NCBI GenBank assembly: GCA_017858255.1
Contig: JAFMBV010000029.1
Span: 1 to 35,906, forward strand
Direction of reading: 5' to 3'
Length of the DNA stretch: 35,906 nucleotides
Source: Bacteriovoracaceae bacterium
GTDB lineage: Bacteria; Bdellovibrionota; Bacteriovoracia; Bacteriovoracales; Bacteriovoracaceae
Notes under the pieces: model-generated
Told to the model about the DNA's origin: nothing
Databases searched by the model: none
What the model saw: the letters and a program-made list of their open reading frames with translations, nothing else
Part shown: positions 21,741-30,906 of the stretch, piece after piece
How the letters are laid out: each line of letters starts with the position of its first letter
Numbering within the stretch: position 1 is the first letter of the stretch
Position numbers and translations under genes: made by a program

Positions 21741-23477
21741 TTAAATCTCATCAATGGTGATTTTATTGATCATCAATTGAATATACTCATTACCATTAAA
21801 ACGATTTATACCCAGGGTGAAATAAAGAGTTAGCTCTGCTCCCTGGGTTTGTTTCGTAAAAATCTCTTGTGGATGAAGCTTCTCAAAACCACCAATGTAA
21901 TTAAAACTAATTCCTTTAAGAGGCGCCATCTTTGGTCCTTTGAGCGCTTGAAAAGTCCAGCGAACATGGACATCTTTAAGAAGGTCAAAGTTACTTAGAC
22001 GAATGTTTTTCATCTTAAAAAGTGGTTTTTCATTACCCATACCAAAAGGCTCTAATTTCTCTAAGTCTTTTAAAAGTTTTGGGTTTATTTCATGAGGGTC
22101 AACTTCTAAGTCATATGAAAATTGAACGGTTCTTTCGATGGCCGGTATTTCTTTTAGAATCAGACTCATTCTTTCTTTAAAAGCACCTAAGTTTTCAAGC
22201 GGCATACTTAGTCCTGCTGCCGCTTTGTGACCACCAAACTTTAGAAATAGGTCTTTGCATTGATCTAAACAATTAAAGATATTAAAGTCACCGGCGGCCC
22301 TAGCACTTGCTTTAATGACCCCTTCCTCTTCAGCATTGGTAAAAACAATGGCGGAGACTTTATAGCTCTCAACGAGTTTACTGGCGACAATACCAATAAC
22401 GCCCTCATGCCAAGCTTCGTCGTAGACAATAGCAATTAAGGGATCAGAACCATCAAAGCTCTTAACAAAGACTTCTTTTGCTTCTTCAAAGACTTGGGCC
22501 TGAATGTATTTTCTTTCTTTATTACTGACTTCAAGGTGGCTATAAAACTCGTAAGCTTTTGTAGAGTCATCACTAATGAGAAGGTTTAATGCTTTTTCAG
22601 GATGATCTAATCGTCCTTTTGAATTAATAAGGGGACCAATATTAAAAGAAAGTTTTTCACTTGGTACAAGAGTTTGCTTTCTCTCTTCAGGACTAAAGAA
22701 TGCTCTAATACCAGCATATTGAGTCGTGGGGATTTGTTTAAGGCCATGGCGCACAAGCTTGATATTCATAGGTGTGAGCTTGGCCAGATCACAGATAGTA
22801 CCAATGGCAACGAATTGTAATAAAGGATATAAAGACGGGCATTCTTGGCCAATTTCTTCTAGCTTTTTCTTTAGCTCCCAGCAAACGGCAAATGCCACAC
22901 CAACTCCAGCGAGAGGTCCAAGAGGAGAATCTTTTGGCTCGTCCCTGCGATTAGGATTGACCACTGCAAGAGCGTTAGGCATTTCATCACGGCCATCTTT
23001 GTGGTGATCAGTAATGATGAGATCAAGCCCTCTTTCTTTAGCATAATCCGCTGCTTCGTTATTTGTAATTCCACAATCAACGGTAATAAGTAGGCTTATT
23101 CCTGCGCTGAGTGCCTGATCAATACTACTTGCATGAAGACCGTAGCCTTCAATAAAGCGGCTAGGCTGAATTAGTTTTACTTCCAGGCCGACCATTTTAA
23201 AAAAGTGGTAAAAGAGAGCGCAACTTGTGGTGCCGTCCACATCATAGTCACCGTAAATACCGATGACCTCCTCATTTGCAATTGCATCTAAGATACGGTC
23301 GGTACACTCTGGCATACCTTGCATGTTGGTAAGTTCTGGTAGTTCTTTGAGGTCCCAGGAAAGAAACTCTTTTATCTCTTCTGGTCCCCAGCCCCTTTTT
23401 TCAAAGAGACGGAGAATTATAGGGTGAAGGCCAGGCCTTACATTAGGTGAGGTAGTTGATGTGTGTTGTGTATTCAT
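21741..23477 (-). CDS. recJ: Single-stranded-DNA-specific exonuclease RecJ
   Basis: RecJ degrades single-stranded DNA 5' to 3' in recombination and mismatch repair. The 578 residues match E. coli length (577). DHH-family motif I is IGIYGDYDVDGTTS (aspartates at about 77-82), motif II DCGI is in LITVDCGITN, motif III is LDLIITDHHKDG, and motif IV is VAIGTICDLAKL. The DHHA1-domain signature FGGHKAAAGLSM comes later (about 400), and a C-terminal OB-fold (TQGAELTLYFTLGINRF) ends the protein. I choose ATG 23477; TTG 23483, two codons earlier, is equally possible and neither has a clear Shine-Dalgarno. The gene stands alone on its strand. Confidence 0.96.
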   Translation of the reverse strand: MNTQHTSTTSPNVRPGLHPIILRLFEKRGWGPEEIKEFLSWDLKELPELTNMQGMPECTDRILDAIANEEVIGIYGDYDVDGTTSCALFYHFFKMVGLEVKLIQPSRFIEGYGLHASSIDQALSAGISLLITVDCGITNNEAADYAKERGLDLIITDHHKDGRDEMPNALAVVNPNRRDEPKDSPLGPLAGVGVAFAVCWELKKKLEEIGQECPSLYPLLQFVAIGTICDLAKLTPMNIKLVRHGLKQIPTTQYAGIRAFFSPEERKQTLVPSEKLSFNIGPLINSKGRLDHPEKALNLLISDDSTKAYEFYSHLEVSNKERKYIQAQVFEEAKEVFVKSFDGSDPLIAIVYDEAWHEGVIGIVASKLVESYKVSAIVFTNAEEEGVIKASARAAGDFNIFNCLDQCKDLFLKFGGHKAAAGLSMPLENLGAFKERMSLILKEIPAIERTVQFSYDLEVDPHEINPKLLKDLEKLEPFGMGNEKPLFKMKNIRLSNFDLLKDVHVRWTFQALKGPKMAPLKGISFNYIGGFEKLHPQEIFTKQTQGAELTLYFTLGINRFNGNEYIQLMINKITIDEI

Positions 23478-23554
23478 GTTCAAAATCTAGCATGAGCAAT
23501 ACTCAACGGATAGAAATTGCTTTATGAAGCGACGCAAACTAGCTGTTTTTACTT

Positions 23555-23800
23555 TTACCAAAGTACACTTATGCCCTTGATAAGATCCTCTTCTTGCATG
23601 TCGTCACTGTTGGAAAATAGTTCATCGAATTCTTTAGAGTTCTTAGCGTGAACCTTACTAAAGTAATTCATCGGCAGAAAAGATTTTTTGCATTTCGTGC
23701 ACTTTTTGCGCTCAATGTAGCTCTCCATTACTGTGCCACAAAGGTGACATTTCTTAATCAGTAACTTGCCTTTTTTCGTCGGGTTTGTTGTTAACTTCAT
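23555..23800 (-). CDS. Small zinc-ribbon-like protein
   Basis: This 81-residue protein has two CxxC pairs 15 residues apart, CHLCGTVMESYIERKKCTKC, followed by KKSFLPMNYF. That is the pattern of a treble-clef or zinc-ribbon finger. The N-terminus is basic (LTTNPTKKGKLLIKK) and the C-terminus acidic (FDELFSNSDDMQEEDLIKG), a layout that suggests contact with nucleic acid or RNA polymerase. I do not recognise the family. GGAAGG is 7 bases before the ATG, a good start. It is flanked by recJ (72 bases after) and by the secreted cluster (about 130 bases before). Confidence 0.8.
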   Translation of the reverse strand: MKLTTNPTKKGKLLIKKCHLCGTVMESYIERKKCTKCKKSFLPMNYFSKVHAKNSKEFDELFSNSDDMQEEDLIKGISVLW

Positions 23801-23929: not shown

Positions 23930-24712
23930 TTACTGGAAGAAAAGAGTCGGTTGTTGGATTCGTGGACCCATCATTTGGTTTTGATTAAAAGGCAATTGTG
24001 CTTGATATGGGTTTTGCGATTGGACCCCACTTCCAAGTGGATCACGATACATATTTTCAATATTTTGAAAGGCAGAAGGTCCTCCATAAATGGGGTTTGA
24101 TAAGTTGCCTTGAGAATCCCATTCTGGTTGCCAGTAATTATCTCTTTCCATGTTAAAGGAAAGGCGATTGAGTGTGGCCATTTGCATATAATTATTTAGC
24201 TGCTGACTGCTTGGATTATGAAAAGGACTTGAGGCCATTACCATAGGTGTCGGTATCGTCATTTGTGGACTTGGTGTTTGCATGGAGAACATCATTGCGC
24301 TTAGTAGGGCGAATTGAGAGGCTTGCCTTTCTTTTTCTTTGTCATTTTCTTTGTCACTTTTTTCTTTCTTTGCTTTTCTTTCTTTTTCTTCTTCTCGAGT
24401 GTATTTCTCAAGAGCGGCAATCACTCTATTTCTTTCTCTTTGTAAATGTTCAAGGTCCTCTTTCAAAGTTGCAAGCTGATTTTCGTTAGCACAAATTGTT
24501 TCTAACGAGGCATCGACTGAGGAATCCTCACCTTTATCTTCAGGTGAAACTGAAGAAATTTTTCTATGGCGACAAATTGAAGGAGTCTTTGGTTTTAGAT
24601 CTTTGCCTACTTTGTAATGGTCTGAGTTGCGCTTCAATCCTGCAACAAAAAGCATTGTAAGGCCTGTAAGACCTAAAACCAGCATGACTTTCATTTTTCT
24701 CTCTCTCGTCAT
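23930..24712 (-). CDS. Exported coiled-coil protein with Met/Gln/Asn/Pro-rich C-terminus
   Basis: I do not recognise this 260-residue protein. Basic residues (TRERKMK) precede one hydrophobic helix VMLVLGLTGLTMLFVAGL, a signal peptide or anchor. A short polar region with two cysteines (SICRHRKI; TICANENQ) is followed by a coiled coil at about 76-130: QLATLKEDLEHLQRERNRVI, then a very charged run of Lys/Glu (KERKAKKEKSDKENDKEKER). The last 125 residues are low-complexity and rich in M, Q, N, P and S (MFSMQTPSPQMTIPTPMVMA; NPYQAQLPFNQNQMMGPRIQ). Such tails are typical of surface or matrix proteins. AAGGAG lies 6 bases before the ATG, and a sigma-54-like element sits 26-41 bases upstream. It is a neighbour of the similarly built gene at 24872. 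Confidence 0.8.
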   Translation of the reverse strand: MTRERKMKVMLVLGLTGLTMLFVAGLKRNSDHYKVGKDLKPKTPSICRHRKISSVSPEDKGEDSSVDASLETICANENQLATLKEDLEHLQRERNRVIAALEKYTREEEKERKAKKEKSDKENDKEKERQASQFALLSAMMFSMQTPSPQMTIPTPMVMASSPFHNPSSQQLNNYMQMATLNRLSFNMERDNYWQPEWDSQGNLSNPIYGGPSAFQNIENMYRDPLGSGVQSQNPYQAQLPFNQNQMMGPRIQQPTLFFQ

Positions 24713-24737
24713 TAATGACTCCTTAGGTCTTATACAT

Positions 24738-24753
24738 CCAAGAATGATGCCAA
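24738..24753 (-). promoter_or_regulatory. Sigma-54-like -24/-12 element upstream of the 23930-24712 gene
   Basis: On the minus strand TTGGCAT (24753-24747), five bases, then TTGG (24741-24738) has the -24/-12 spacing of RpoN promoters (TTGGCAC-N5-TTGC), with G instead of C at the last position. The predicted start near 24727 leaves just enough leader for the Shine-Dalgarno. The same 16-base pattern recurs upstream of the next gene. Confidence 0.5.
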
Positions 24754-24871
24754 CTTTATTGAGGTAAGTGTTTGATATGTTCAGGCATTAGGTGAAGAGA
24801 TTGTCTAAAGATTTGACAGTGATGAGAAAGTTTTATGCACCTTTGTCACCACCGTCTTTGGAAATTAATTT

Positions 24872-25936
24872 TTAGTTAGTTACTTGATTGAAATCAAATG
24901 ATCCTGAAAACCCATCGCCTCTTTCAAAGATTGGGGTATTTGGAGCGCTAAAGCCAGCACGAAGTCCTTGTAAGTATAGTCCTTCCTGGTCTCCAGGAAG
25001 TTGGCTATTTCCAACAAAGCCGTCACGTCCAAAGTTCGTCATTGAAGGCATTCCCATATAAGTTCTTTGTTGGTTGTAAACAGGTGCATACTTGATGCTT
25101 GCTCTTGGGCTAAATATACTAGATCCTGTTAACATTTTAGTCATCATCAGAAAATTCATATCTAGTCCCATCGGGTTTTGCTGTGAAGCTAGTCCGATTG
25201 GTTGTTGAGCATTAAAAAAGTCATTAGCATTCATTTGATAAGGCTGTGAAAAGGCCCTGATCAATGCAATTGTGTCTGCTGTAGACATCTGGCCATCGTC
25301 ATTGATGACTTCTTCCTGATGATCTCCTCGAGATACCTTTGCTACCACTTCTTCTTTATCTTGAATCAGTTTTTCTACTCTTGAAGAAAGAGATGAAAGC
25401 TCTCTATTTTGCTCGCATATACTTGTATTTATTTCTCTTAGTGCTTGTTCTTGGGCAAGTGTCTTTTTCTCAATGGCCTTTTCAATTGCACCAGAGAGAT
25501 CAACTGATAACTTAACCAGTTCTAGTTGTCTAAGTTGGTCATTTACGACTCCAAGCCTTTTTCCAACTTCAGTGATTACCTCGCCTTTTTGGTTTATGCC
25601 GAGAAATTTATTTAAAGCGGCTTTTGCAACTCGATGTTCGCTCAAAGAAGATTTTAAATCTTTAAGATCTTTATCTCTATTACTTAAAAGGTTCTCTAAT
25701 TTAAGGTCTTCGGCATCAATATTTTCACGAATAGTATCTCTCAAAGAAACTATTTCGTTGGCCCTTTTCTCCATTTTAGCTATATGAGAGGAGATATTAT
25801 CAATATTAACTTCAACCACTTCCTCTGAAGCAACACCTCTCCAAAGTGGTTGACCTGTTTGATACTCATAGACAACATTAGTTGACCAACCGGTACCAAG
25901 TAAGAAGGCCGCAATGGCCAGATGACGAGTTTTCAT
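24872..25936 (-). CDS. Exported long coiled-coil protein with Asn/Gln/Met-rich C-terminus
   Basis: I place the start at ATG 25936, where GGAGG is 5 bases upstream; TTG 25948 overlaps that Shine-Dalgarno. The 354-residue product has a signal peptide (KTRHLAIAAFLLGTGWSTNV). A long coiled coil at about 40-210 follows (HIAKMEKRANEIVSLRDTIR; LNKFLGINQKGEVITEVGKR; ELSSLSSRVEKLIQDKEEVV). The C-terminal third is rich in N, Q, M, F, P and G (PYQMNANDFFNAQQPIGLAS; PMGLDMNFLMMTKMLTGSSI; YAPVYNQQRTYMGMPSMTNF). The layout matches the adjacent gene at 23930. It lacks known domains; a cell-surface or periplasmic structural role is inferred from composition alone. A sigma-54-like element lies 37-52 bases upstream. 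Confidence 0.82.
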   Translation of the reverse strand: MKTRHLAIAAFLLGTGWSTNVVYEYQTGQPLWRGVASEEVVEVNIDNISSHIAKMEKRANEIVSLRDTIRENIDAEDLKLENLLSNRDKDLKDLKSSLSEHRVAKAALNKFLGINQKGEVITEVGKRLGVVNDQLRQLELVKLSVDLSGAIEKAIEKKTLAQEQALREINTSICEQNRELSSLSSRVEKLIQDKEEVVAKVSRGDHQEEVINDDGQMSTADTIALIRAFSQPYQMNANDFFNAQQPIGLASQQNPMGLDMNFLMMTKMLTGSSIFSPRASIKYAPVYNQQRTYMGMPSMTNFGRDGFVGNSQLPGDQEGLYLQGLRAGFSAPNTPIFERGDGFSGSFDFNQVTN

Positions 25937-25972
25937 ATGTTCCTCCAAATATTTTGAATCAATGTTCTAGTT

Positions 25973-25988
25973 ACAAGAACAGTGCCAA
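25973..25988 (-). promoter_or_regulatory. Sigma-54-like -24/-12 element upstream of the 24872-25936 gene
   Basis: On the minus strand TTGGCAC (25988-25982), TGTTC, TTGT (25976-25973) fits TTGGCAC-N5-TTGC with one change at the last position, where C is T. The -24 half is a perfect match. The predicted start near 25962 leaves about 26 bases of leader. It shares 13 of 16 positions with the element at 24738-24753. Confidence 0.55.
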
Positions 25989-26142
25989 CCTTTTGGAGAG
26001 TTAAACCCTCGGTATTAGACTTTCTTTTTTTCAGGGTTGTTAAAAATTTAGACAACTGTAATCGTCGGTATTTAAAAACGAAGAGTAATCGCTACCCCCT
26101 AGATAGTAATTCAATAGATGCTTAAAATAGTAAAGGATTTAA

Positions 26143-27249
26143 ATGATCAAGGAGATCAGAGTGAGAGTTATCTTTATATACGCCATCTTATTGTTATTTT
26201 CATTTGCGGCCTCAGCAGCAGTTGATTACTCTGCATGCCAAGCTTATATGCAGCCAACTATGGTTCCTGGCATTGGTATTGGCTACCAACCCATAGTTCC
26301 TATTTCTTTTAAGGATGATGGCTCTATAGAAAAAGAAGACTTTGTTGACCTTAAAACAGAAGATGGCGGCAAAACACAAATCTTTACTTACAAAGTTCCA
26401 GGTGGTTTTCCTACCCAAGAGGGAGCTGAGATAAAAACAAATACAATTCCCATGCAGGTAACGGTTAAAAGAGATGATAAAGGAAATATCACTGAGGTTA
26501 TTCAAGGTGATAATCAAACCACAGAGATGCTAAGAAACTTTGATTCATGGACTAGAAGAAGTTATGAGAATTCAGTTCCGGAGAGTATACGAAAGCAAAA
26601 TGATGAAACTCTCGGTGGCAGTGATAAGAAGTATTCCCCACCATTCTTTGCTTACAAGGGACGGACTATTCAATTTGATGTGAAAAATGGAAAGTGTGTT
26701 CCTCTGAAAGTAAGCCTAAGTTATTATACTGAGCCTAAGAAGGATGGAGAGTCTATAGAGATCACTCAATTGGACACACAGCTTTGTCGTGACGTTAATG
26801 AGTTTATTAAAGCAAACCCTGAAGCTTCAGCTTGTTTTCGAAAAGATATTAATGATCGCATGGGTATGATTTTCAAAAAGCATATTCCTAATTATCAAGA
26901 GGAAGCATCAAATATTATGAACTCCGGTACTCCATTTGGAGGATTTGGTAGCTACGGTGGTTATGGTTCTATGGGAGGCGGCGGCTTCGGTGGTATGGGT
27001 GGATTTGCCATGAATAGTTTGGCCAATAATATTTTAGCAAATGATGAAACGTTTCTTAAGAATGTAAATGATGCTGATTATTTGGCAATAAAAAGACGCT
27101 TTGGAAATAGTCCTGTCATGAATGGTCAGCGGATACTGCAAAGTTGTTTTGATGGTGGTGTCAGAGATATAATCGAGGACGAGAGTATTTGGAGCCAGCG
27201 TTCACGAGAATCATCAAGAGACACGCCAGCATCTGCAGAAGAAAAATAA
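26143..27249 (+). CDS. Secreted protein with glycine-rich segment, unknown function
   Basis: The 368-residue product has a signal peptide (VIFIYAILLLFSFAASAA, cleavage near AVDYSACQ). The mature part contains five cysteines (SACQAY, GKCVPLK, TQLCRDV, SACFRKD, LQSCFDGG). It has beta-rich stretches (QIFTYKVPGGFPTQEGAEIK; IPMQVTVKRDDKGNITEVIQ) and a glycine-rich run at about 264-290 (PFGGFGSYGGYGSMGGGGFG), then an Asn/Ala helical part and an acidic, Ser/Arg-rich end. Two in-frame starts each have a ribosome site: ATG 26143 (AAAGGA, 5 bases) and GTG 26161 (AAGGAG, 6 bases, inside the first codons). The second gives a tighter signal peptide. It is divergent from the coiled-coil gene and ends in a strong terminator. 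I recognise no family. Confidence 0.82.
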   Translation: MIKEIRVRVIFIYAILLLFSFAASAAVDYSACQAYMQPTMVPGIGIGYQPIVPISFKDDGSIEKEDFVDLKTEDGGKTQIFTYKVPGGFPTQEGAEIKTNTIPMQVTVKRDDKGNITEVIQGDNQTTEMLRNFDSWTRRSYENSVPESIRKQNDETLGGSDKKYSPPFFAYKGRTIQFDVKNGKCVPLKVSLSYYTEPKKDGESIEITQLDTQLCRDVNEFIKANPEASACFRKDINDRMGMIFKKHIPNYQEEASNIMNSGTPFGGFGSYGGYGSMGGGGFGGMGGFAMNSLANNILANDETFLKNVNDADYLAIKRRFGNSPVMNGQRILQSCFDGGVRDIIEDESIWSQRSRESSRDTPASAEEK

Positions 27250-27254
27250 TATCG

Positions 27255-27279
27255 GCCTCCTTACGGAGGCTTTTTTTTT
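27255..27279 (+). terminator. Intrinsic terminator of the 26143-27249 gene
   Basis: GCCTCC (27255-27260), loop TTAC, GGAGGC (27265-27270), then nine T (27271-27279). This is a textbook rho-independent terminator. The T-run touches the stop codon of the convergent gene at 27278. Confidence 0.9.
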
Positions 27280-27553
27280 ACATATTTTCTAGGTTTTCTA
27301 AATTTTGAGCGAAAGCTTTCTTCATTTTCTTCATGAGCTCAATTTCTTGGCGCAGTCTTAATGTTTCAATTTGCTTGCGCACTAGAGCTTCGTTTCTTGC
27401 TTCTAGCATTTTTCTTTGAAGCTTAAGGCGTTCAGCTGGTGTAGCTCTCTTTTGATACTGACCATTAATATTAATTGGCTCTTCCATATTATGAGTTTCT
27501 GCACGCGTTGCAGCAGAAAAAGTAATAAAGATAAGAGGAATGAGTATTCTCAC
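27278..27553 (-). CDS. Small exported coiled-coil protein
   Basis: This 91-residue protein has a signal peptide (MRILIPLIFITFSAATRA, cleavage before ETHN). The mature 70 residues are almost entirely a predicted amphipathic, charged helix: ATPAERLKLQRKMLEARNEA, VRKQIETLRLRQEIELMKKM, KKAFAQNLENLENM. There are no cysteines and no recognisable family; short periplasmic helical proteins of this type can be chaperone-like or structural. AAAGGA lies about 15 bases upstream and GTGAGA directly before the ATG. It is downstream of icd on the same strand but separated from it by a terminator. It completes the cluster of exported proteins 23930-27553. Confidence 0.75.
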   Translation of the reverse strand: MRILIPLIFITFSAATRAETHNMEEPININGQYQKRATPAERLKLQRKMLEARNEALVRKQIETLRLRQEIELMKKMKKAFAQNLENLENM

Positions 27554-29003: not shown

Positions 29004-29402
29004 TCAGGTGGCCAATGGAGCTAGTTTTTGAATTTTGGTTACGATTTGCCCATCATTCTGAGTCTCAACGATGTAGTCATTCGCGCCTTCTTTAATTACT
29101 TGGATAATATGGGTGGGATCATTTTCTGGGTTAACAAAGAGAATAGGTAGTCTCTTCTTGTTATCGTTAACCTGCCTCATGAGGAGAAGGATTTCTCTAC
29201 CTGGCATATCCTCTGACTCCCCAACAATCACAACTAGCTTATAGACCTTACTAGAGGTATTACTTTCTTCCAAAAGGCTTATCGCCTGAAATCCAGAAGA
29301 AGAGAGCTCTGTCGAATAACCCATCATTCTTAGGCGAGAGCTAATATTATTTTTGCGGGTATGGTCTTGGTCCACGATTAGGACAATATTTTCTTTTTTC
29401 AT
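29004..29402 (-). CDS. Stand-alone response-regulator receiver domain, degenerate (pseudo-receiver)
   Basis: The 132-residue protein is a single CheY-like domain with no output domain. The fold order is recognisable: ENIVLIVDQDHTRKNNISSR, GYSTELSSSGFQAISLLEES, YKLVVIVGESEDMPGREILL, KRLPILFVNPENDPTHIIQV and KEGANDYIVE. The phosphorylation chemistry is lost. The second acidic residue of the usual Asp-Asp pair is Gln (VDQD). The phospho-acceptor position four residues before the Pro of MPG is Ser, with acidic residues only at other positions. The switch Thr/Ser is Asn (FVNPE), and the invariant Lys of the DYLxKP turn is Glu (DYIVE). It should act without phosphorylation, as a protein-binding module. 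The start lacks a strong Shine-Dalgarno. Confidence 0.85.
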   Translation of the reverse strand: MKKENIVLIVDQDHTRKNNISSRLRMMGYSTELSSSGFQAISLLEESNTSSKVYKLVVIVGESEDMPGREILLLMRQVNDNKKRLPILFVNPENDPTHIIQVIKEGANDYIVETQNDGQIVTKIQKLAPLAT

Positions 29403-29763: not shown

Positions 29764-29862
29764 GAATGAAGTCGGAATTTAATTGAGCATGCCCTTTTCT
29801 TGTCATAGTGGAGGCTTTGCGTTACTGTCCGCGCAAATACAACTAAGGGTAAGGAACGATTG

Positions 29863-30906
29863 GTGTCGATGAGATTATACTTTCTAGCACTATGCTGTTT
29901 ATTCAGTTCTGTAGTTTTTGGAAGCAGTATCTGCCGTCGCTCGCCCTTTATGGTTGAAGCACTTGAAACGACTTTTCAGACAATATGCGCTGATATTTCC
30001 CTTGATGACATTGGTAAACTCAAAAGCTTGAATCTAAGTAATATTAGCTTGGAGAGGGTCGATATTGATGACTTCTTAGGGTTTACCTCCCTAGAGTCTC
30101 TTGATATTTCTGGTAATAACATCAAAGAGCTACCCGAAAGCTTTTTGAGTCTATTTCCAAACCTCAAGGAACTTCAGGCCCGATCAAATATTCTTTCTGC
30201 TTTGCCAGTAACTGGGTTTTCAAAAAATAGAAAGCTGGAGTGGCTCGATCTAGGTCAAAATAAACTTGTTCTATTAAGAGAGGATGCATTTTCTAAGAAC
30301 CGAAGCTTAAGGGCTCTCGACCTTGGACAAAATTATATTGAGAAAATACCGAGGCAGATATTTAGTAATAACTCATCTCTTAGAAGCCTTTCTCTTGGAG
30401 CCAATAAAATTTCACTTATTGAGCTTGGGGCCTTTGACTCCTTGGTTAACTTAAGGAACCTAAGTATGTACTCAAATGAGTTGAGATACCTAAGCGTTGG
30501 ACAGTTTGATAATTTGGAAAGCTTAGAAGAAATTTCATTTAGTTTAAACCGAATTACTTGGATACCAGGAGATGTTTTTAAAAACTGTACTCGTTTGAAA
30601 AGAATCTACCTTGGTGGCAACCCTTTGCGCTTTTTACCAATGGGGCTTTTTAAAGGTTTATTTTTGGTCGAAGAGATTTTTCTAAACTATCTTGAAATTG
30701 TTGACCTCAATAAGTCCCTCTTTCATGGCCTACCAAATATAAAATCAATCCTATTAAATGATAATAAAATAAAGAATCTTCACGAAGACACATTTAAACC
30801 GGGCCTATTTAACGAGAAGGCCTTTGTTAATATGGTTAGAAATCCTCTTGATAATAAATATAAGGACCTTGTAAGGGCTCAACTAATCGAACGTGTTTCT
30901 TTCTAG
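29863..30906 (+). CDS. Secreted leucine-rich-repeat protein
   Basis: The product has a signal peptide (MRLYFLALCCLFSSVVFG) and then about ten leucine-rich repeats of the 24-residue typical eukaryote-like kind, with consensus LxxLxLxxNxIxxIPxxxFxx. Examples are LESLDISGNNIKELPESFLS, LEWLDLGQNKLVLLREDAFS, LRALDLGQNYIEKIPRQIFS and LKRIYLGGNPLRFLPMGLFK. There is a cysteine-containing cap before them (ICRRSPF...TICADIS). Such repeats form a curved protein-binding surface, and an exported one suggests contact with other cells or surface proteins. No catalytic domain is attached. Start codon options are TTG 29860, GTG 29863 and ATG 29869; AAGGA is 7 bases before GTG 29863, so I choose it. The stop shares CTAG with the stop of epmB on the other strand. 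Confidence 0.88.
   Translation: MSMRLYFLALCCLFSSVVFGSSICRRSPFMVEALETTFQTICADISLDDIGKLKSLNLSNISLERVDIDDFLGFTSLESLDISGNNIKELPESFLSLFPNLKELQARSNILSALPVTGFSKNRKLEWLDLGQNKLVLLREDAFSKNRSLRALDLGQNYIEKIPRQIFSNNSSLRSLSLGANKISLIELGAFDSLVNLRNLSMYSNELRYLSVGQFDNLESLEEISFSLNRITWIPGDVFKNCTRLKRIYLGGNPLRFLPMGLFKGLFLVEEIFLNYLEIVDLNKSLFHGLPNIKSILLNDNKIKNLHEDTFKPGLFNEKAFVNMVRNPLDNKYKDLVRAQLIERVSF

Follow-up and report, generated by a model that had tools for sequence, protein, structure and literature searches.

A conserved Zn-ribbon-recJ locus of Bacteriovoracaceae carries fast-changing, predicted exported coiled-coil genes preceded by sigma54-type promoter elements

The window analyzed here, 35,906 nucleotides of DNA from a Bacteriovoracaceae bacterium, is contig C159 (JAFMBV010000029.1) of a 4.08-Mb draft genome (G000). 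A first-pass annotation, made from the sequence alone, had proposed that four neighboring genes for exported proteins with no recognizable domains form an undescribed surface system. All four open reading frames (P1 to P4) are present at or near the coordinates proposed for them, and they lie among the following genes.

21741-23483, minus strand: single-stranded-DNA exonuclease gene, taken to be recJ from its sequence; syntenic flank
23555-23800, minus strand: small Zn-ribbon-like protein, 81 aa, with four Cys; lies downstream of P1 and serves as a syntenic marker
23930-24712, minus strand: P1, predicted exported protein of 260 aa with an N-terminal hydrophobic stretch, Cys74, a short coiled coil and a Q/N/M/P-rich tail
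24872-25936, minus strand: P2, predicted exported protein of 354 aa with a variable coil, an invariant single Cys174 and a Met/Gln/Asn/Pro-rich tail
26143-27249, plus strand: P3, predicted exported protein that contains Cys and a Gly-rich stretch; outside the conserved locus
27278-27553, minus strand: P4, predicted exported helical protein, 91 aa, which carries a ~65-aa domain on its own
29004-29402, minus strand: receiver-domain protein of 132 aa, often adjacent to the family locus

The pN/pS values relative to the nearest congener (0.29 for P1, 0.17 for P2, 0.26 for P3 and 0.21 for P4; five flanking genes gave 0.03-0.18) show that P1-P4 are real genes under purifying selection. As the first-pass annotation had stated, none of the four contains a domain above the curated cut-offs of Pfam or NCBIfam. 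A search of PHROGs with P1-P4 returned weak coil-like matches only, which gives little sign of a phage origin.

The gene order receiver-P4-P2-P1-Zn-ribbon-recJ recurs, in full or reduced form, in congeners and in other genera, including Halobacteriovorax marinus, and in some genomes members of the block are replaced or missing. Genes resembling P1 and P2 lie upstream of the Zn-ribbon gene and recJ in ~20 of the 26 Bacteriovoracaceae genera inspected, and also in H. marinus; in 6 of the 26 the Zn-ribbon gene has no such gene alongside. The Zn-ribbon gene itself occurs in 33 of 59 genomes and in none outside Bacteriovoracaceae. When the receiver neighbor was aligned to a CheY reference sequence, both the phospho-acceptor Asp and the conserved Lys were found to be replaced, and the protein therefore looks like a pseudo-receiver. 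Farther along the window (29860-30906) is a gene for an exported leucine-rich-repeat protein (LRR_8, E 2.9e-48).

Of the proposed four-gene cluster, P4-P2-P1 is conserved in relatives and P3 is not part of it. We rejected P3 as a member of the system because it is encoded on the opposite strand, resides at the locus in only three of seven congeners (the window genome and two others) and has homologues placed elsewhere in other genera. It is followed by a terminator-like hairpin (27254-27271). A model of P3 (mean pLDDT 59.8, pTM 0.60) gave no Foldseek match with E <0.3, and its best VIA-align Z was 5.7. At the position of P3 in one congener (G006, L062 10364-12232) there is an unrelated gene for a 622-aa HExxH protein that looks like a thermolysin-type protease, and the interval ahead of P2 looks like a site of insertion. 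In another genome (G015, L067 875-4954), a P3 homologue is found near three pilin- or pseudopilin-like genes.

P1 and P2 matched one another when their profiles were compared by hhalign (probability 99 %, E 1.4e-18). A rerun gave 97.6 %, compared with 15-22 % for reversed alignments and ~0 for shuffled columns. Judged by these profiles, P1 and P2 are tandem homologues belonging to the same undescribed family. The search for further members was anchored on the Zn-ribbon gene, the neighbors of which were inspected. In most genera that lack a BLAST match to P1 or P2, the neighbor of the Zn-ribbon gene still encodes a predicted exported coiled-coil protein whose end is rich in Q/N/M/P. The resulting collection comprises 45 proteins from 29 loci, and 23 genus-level groups when three named records from outside the numbered genome set are counted separately. 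We propose the name “Cys-coil-tail” for this family, whose sequences change fast and which is represented by one or two members per locus. Neither the P2 profile nor the Zn-ribbon marker was found in 22 genomes of other families, and the P2 profile also misses many members inside Bacteriovoracaceae; the family may be confined to Bacteriovoracaceae. Our literature search, with the terms used, found no treatment of such proteins in this group, and a comparative study searched by term (PMC11656739) makes no mention of coiled-coil, sigma or recJ.

What unites the 45 proteins is their architecture: an N-terminal export signal, a coiled coil that differs widely in length, and a C-terminal module that extends from a usually unique Cys to a tail rich in Q, N, M, P, Y and F. 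The distance from the Cys to the C-terminus is 174±23 aa (range 123-246) and that from the N-terminus to the Cys is 197±113 aa (range 14-638). For these statistics the Cys in front of the coil was picked in each protein; exactly one Cys lies beyond residue 35 in 35 of the 45 proteins (10 differ), and there was therefore little room for choice. P1 and P2 each have a Cys followed by a coil of ~30 aa within a C-terminal module in the 123-246-aa range (186 aa from C74 to the end of P1, 180 aa from the Cys to the end of P2), and both lie beside the Zn-ribbon gene and recJ. The Met/Gln/Asn/Pro-rich C-termini pointed out in the first-pass annotation proved to be a feature of the whole family, in which the tails contain 9.9 % Q, 9.4 % N, 8.2 % M and 7.5 % P, compared with 3.6, 5.1, 2.3 and 3.7 %, respectively, in the other proteins of the window. 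The tail of P1 contains SPFHNPSSQQL and YWQPEWDSQGNLSNPIYG.

Within the P1-type proteins Cys74 and Pro196 are invariant, and within P2 the invariant residues are Met1, Arg33, Ala36, Cys174, Pro314 and Arg339. Two of the latter belong to a short motif encoded at the following position.

25826-25840, minus strand: RGVAS codons of P2; R33 and A36 are invariant in 14 P2 sequences, and the motif also occurs in many P1-type proteins

A motif of the form R-x-[IVLP]-A-[SGTNQ] is found shortly behind the N-terminal hydrophobic stretch in many family members. P2 starts at the ATG at 25936, after GGAGGA, and not at the TTG at 25948; its homologues start likewise. Signal peptides had been assigned to these proteins in the first-pass annotation. 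P1 and P2 do have N-terminal hydrophobic stretches, but since neither has a clear A-x-A site, a cleaved signal peptide is uncertain.

The first-pass annotation had also noted a promoter motif shared by two of the genes, which turned out to be its best clue. The elements in question precede P1 and P2.

24737-24753, minus strand: P1 promoter element TTGGCATCATTCTTGGA, sigma54-type -24/-12, 41 nt ahead of the ATG
25972-25988, minus strand: P2 promoter element TTGGCACTGTTCTTGTA, sigma54-type -24/-12

Sigma54 promoters consist of a -24 element with GG (TGGCAC/T) and, at a fixed spacing, a -12 TTG element with GC, canonically TTGC. Using the pattern TGGC[AC][CT]-N5-TTGN[AT] on the coding strand and identical windows for family genes and others, we found sites upstream of 36 of 45 family genes, compared with 2 of 391 other genes of the same loci and 1 of 45 on the opposite strand (Fisher p 9e-42, a value inflated by relatedness of the genes). 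Nineteen of 23 genus-level groups were site-positive. Of the nine family genes without a site, five stand second in a closely spaced pair and one (in G028) is truncated at the end of a contig. Most sites lie 40-75 nt from the corrected start codon. Genome-wide, counts of the strict pattern against a reversed control were 14:1, 9:1, 12:2 and 7:2 in four genomes, and rpoN is present in 56 of 59 genomes (in G000, PF04552 E 2.1e-64). In the -12 element, for the most part TTG[TGA]A, the G is present and the base after it is usually T, G or A, with C in a few cases; we use the label “sigma54-type” because the canonical C is usually missing. Control of the genes by sigma54 in the cell would be consistent with this distribution. 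A TTGTC-N-GACAA palindrome upstream of P1 and of P2/P3 was considered as a common motif and rejected, as it occurs 4 times in the window vs 3.1 expected and 34 times in the genome vs 28 in the reversed control. The number of sigma70-type sites in the region (23 vs 14.1±4.2 in shuffles) was judged uninformative. The apparent pseudo-receiver gene (29004-29402) adjoins this locus with its sigma54-type promoters.

Other intergenic sites precede operons with PapD-type chaperones in G000, G002 and G008 (the domain itself was tested in G000 and G008), one precedes fliL-fliM in G022, and others precede several exported proteins. The sites that precede the fimbrial operons with PapD chaperones and fliL-fliM lend indirect support to a structural role of the P1/P2 family at the surface, although the regulon argument is weak because sigma54 drives non-structural genes too. 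PapD-type chaperone-usher fimbriae of the same genomes share with P1 and P2 a sigma54-type promoter and exported structural subunits, but no PapD-type chaperone is encoded at the P1/P2 locus and neither P1 nor P2 has a pilin domain. The link with fimbrial operons, together with fast divergence of sequence under a conserved architecture and the presence of the family in the predator H. marinus, could also mean that the proteins are surface adhesins or prey-contact fibers whose fast-evolving tails bind prey or surfaces and which are expressed in the attack phase via sigma54. We consider this unlikely: the proteins have no known anchor or signal for crossing the outer membrane, the tail is under purifying selection (pN/pS 0.15 for that of P2), so that the positive selection possible for a contact surface is not seen, and the idea presupposes that the organism of the window is a predator. 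Like the P1/P2 family, YadA-type trimeric autotransporter adhesins have an export signal and a coiled-coil stalk that varies in length, and the terminal [YF]-F-x-F of several P1-type members is reminiscent of the signal at the C-terminus of outer-membrane proteins. However, Pfam did not find the C-terminal anchor domain of the YadA type in P1, P2 or four relatives, and the tail of the P1/P2 family is instead Q/N/M/P-rich, and disordered in the P2 model.

That model, an AlphaFold monomer (mean pLDDT 61.9, pTM 0.38), has low confidence outside the coil. Its confident helical part spans residues ~48-204, with Cys174 inside the helix from 140 to 204, and the tail is modeled as disorder. The earlier description as a long coiled coil suits P2 better than P1. 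A search of solved structures with the P2 profile gave a best E of 0.42. By our reading of the sequence, the Cys occupies a heptad position that seems to lie outside the core, and a disulfide inside one coiled coil is therefore not obvious.

Coiled-coil filament proteins of cell curvature are known in crescentin (CreS) and CrvA, and P1 and P2 share with both a filament-type coiled coil, CrvA also being periplasmic; the likeness is one of how the proteins might work. Neither CreS nor CrvA is known to us to have an end module with one Cys and a Q/N/M/P tail. If the likeness were to hold, the product would be a periskeleton, that is, a periplasmic polymer under the outer membrane that acts as a scaffold for cell shape or envelope spacing, like CrvA of Vibrio or the cytoplasmic crescentin, rather than a surface structure. 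The vibrioid shape of Caulobacter and Vibrio has been attributed to cytoskeletal or periskeletal proteins (PMC8938487). The variable length of the coiled coil, the lack of a known surface anchor and a link of P4 to a beta-barrel (see below) suit a polymer of this kind. P2 has weak similarity to the crescentin rod (PF19220; E 0.0069), but at 15.9 bits it is far below the cut-off of 100, any coiled coil gives such similarity, and a constant shape factor under sigma54 control would be unusual. We regard a periskeletal role as unlikely, though marginally less so than an adhesin.

The ~65-aa domain of P4 is helical, with invariant R47, L50, E51, E55, I62, E63, R66 and E70. Named matches come from Bacteriovoracaceae, Bdellovibrionales, other MAGs of the group and Halobacteriovorax, including H. 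marinus. P4 often adjoins the family genes and is missing or unrecognizable in several genera. The same domain occurs in a paralogue in the window genome (contig C68), where it lies ahead of an outer-membrane beta-barrel (PF13505, E 2.4e-10); P4 shares the helical domain with this small barrel protein of the OMP_b-brl type but has no barrel of its own.

G000, contig C68, locus L056, 5767-6840 and 6969-7211: P4-barrel paralogue and an 80-aa pilin-like gene with a Flp/class III signal

The paralogue and the Flp-like pilin gene have the same layout in a congener (L073). Non-TAD flp pilins have been reported in H. marinus (PMC5430801).

Because its paralogue is fused to a beta-barrel, P4 may be a link to the outer membrane. 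A small exported helix beside genes for tail proteins might alternatively be a periplasmic chaperone for aggregation-prone proteins, which would then be envelope stress or storage proteins forming no defined fiber. P4 has a weak similarity to LTXXQ (Spy/CpxP; PF07813, E 0.14) that would suit such a chaperone, but at 13.4 bits against a curated cut-off of 24.3 it is not significant, and the barrel fusion fits a tether better. We consider a chaperone quite improbable.

Together, these data suggest that the members of the P1/P2 family are probably components of a cell-envelope or surface structure that is so far undescribed. Tentatively, and with slightly less than an even chance of being right, we propose that P2 and P1 are sigma54-controlled exported structural proteins of an envelope or surface fiber or scaffold, encoded at the Zn-ribbon-recJ locus of Bacteriovoracaceae. 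RNA polymerase with sigma54 would turn on the P1/P2 genes along with other surface genes, and the proteins would pass the inner membrane and associate via the coiled coil, which an intermolecular disulfide at the single Cys could lock in the oxidizing envelope. The N-terminal coil would be a length-adjustable spacer and the Q/N/M/P/Y/F-rich module the assembly or binding end, with the P4 helix as a putative periplasmic partner or adaptor that ties the assembly to the outer membrane. A fuller version, in which a sigma54-controlled filament system with an adjustable spacer, a fixed disulfide-locking end module and a P4 tie to the outer membrane exists lineage-wide and is used in the predatory attack phase, seems unlikely to hold in all its parts.

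An undescribed locus for exported coiled-coil proteins, as the first-pass annotation had it, is borne out by the conserved neighborhood and the common promoter type, and for P4-P2-P1 we encountered neither loss of the neighborhood in relatives nor homologues with clearly unrelated functions. What is new is an apparently lineage-specific family of exported proteins with a putative structural role. Its place, promoter type and architecture have been kept across ~20 genera while its sequence drifted beyond the reach of BLAST, and sequence-based annotation would for this reason list the members as unrelated hypothetical proteins. The locus in H. marinus, a cultured predator, is a concrete candidate for an envelope or surface structure. 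Predation genes of Bacteriovoracaceae are poorly known, and the locus offers a handle on sigma54 targets in this family. Sigma54-type sites are also found before a conserved exported protein of 113-123 aa with a YPEE motif in four genomes and, in two genomes, before a 138-167-aa protein followed by an exported protein of ~207 aa; the loci of all these other sigma54-type sites, those at the PapD-chaperone operons and fliL-fliM included, are L077, L160, L173, L176, L159, L163, L179, L165, L084, L166 and L177.
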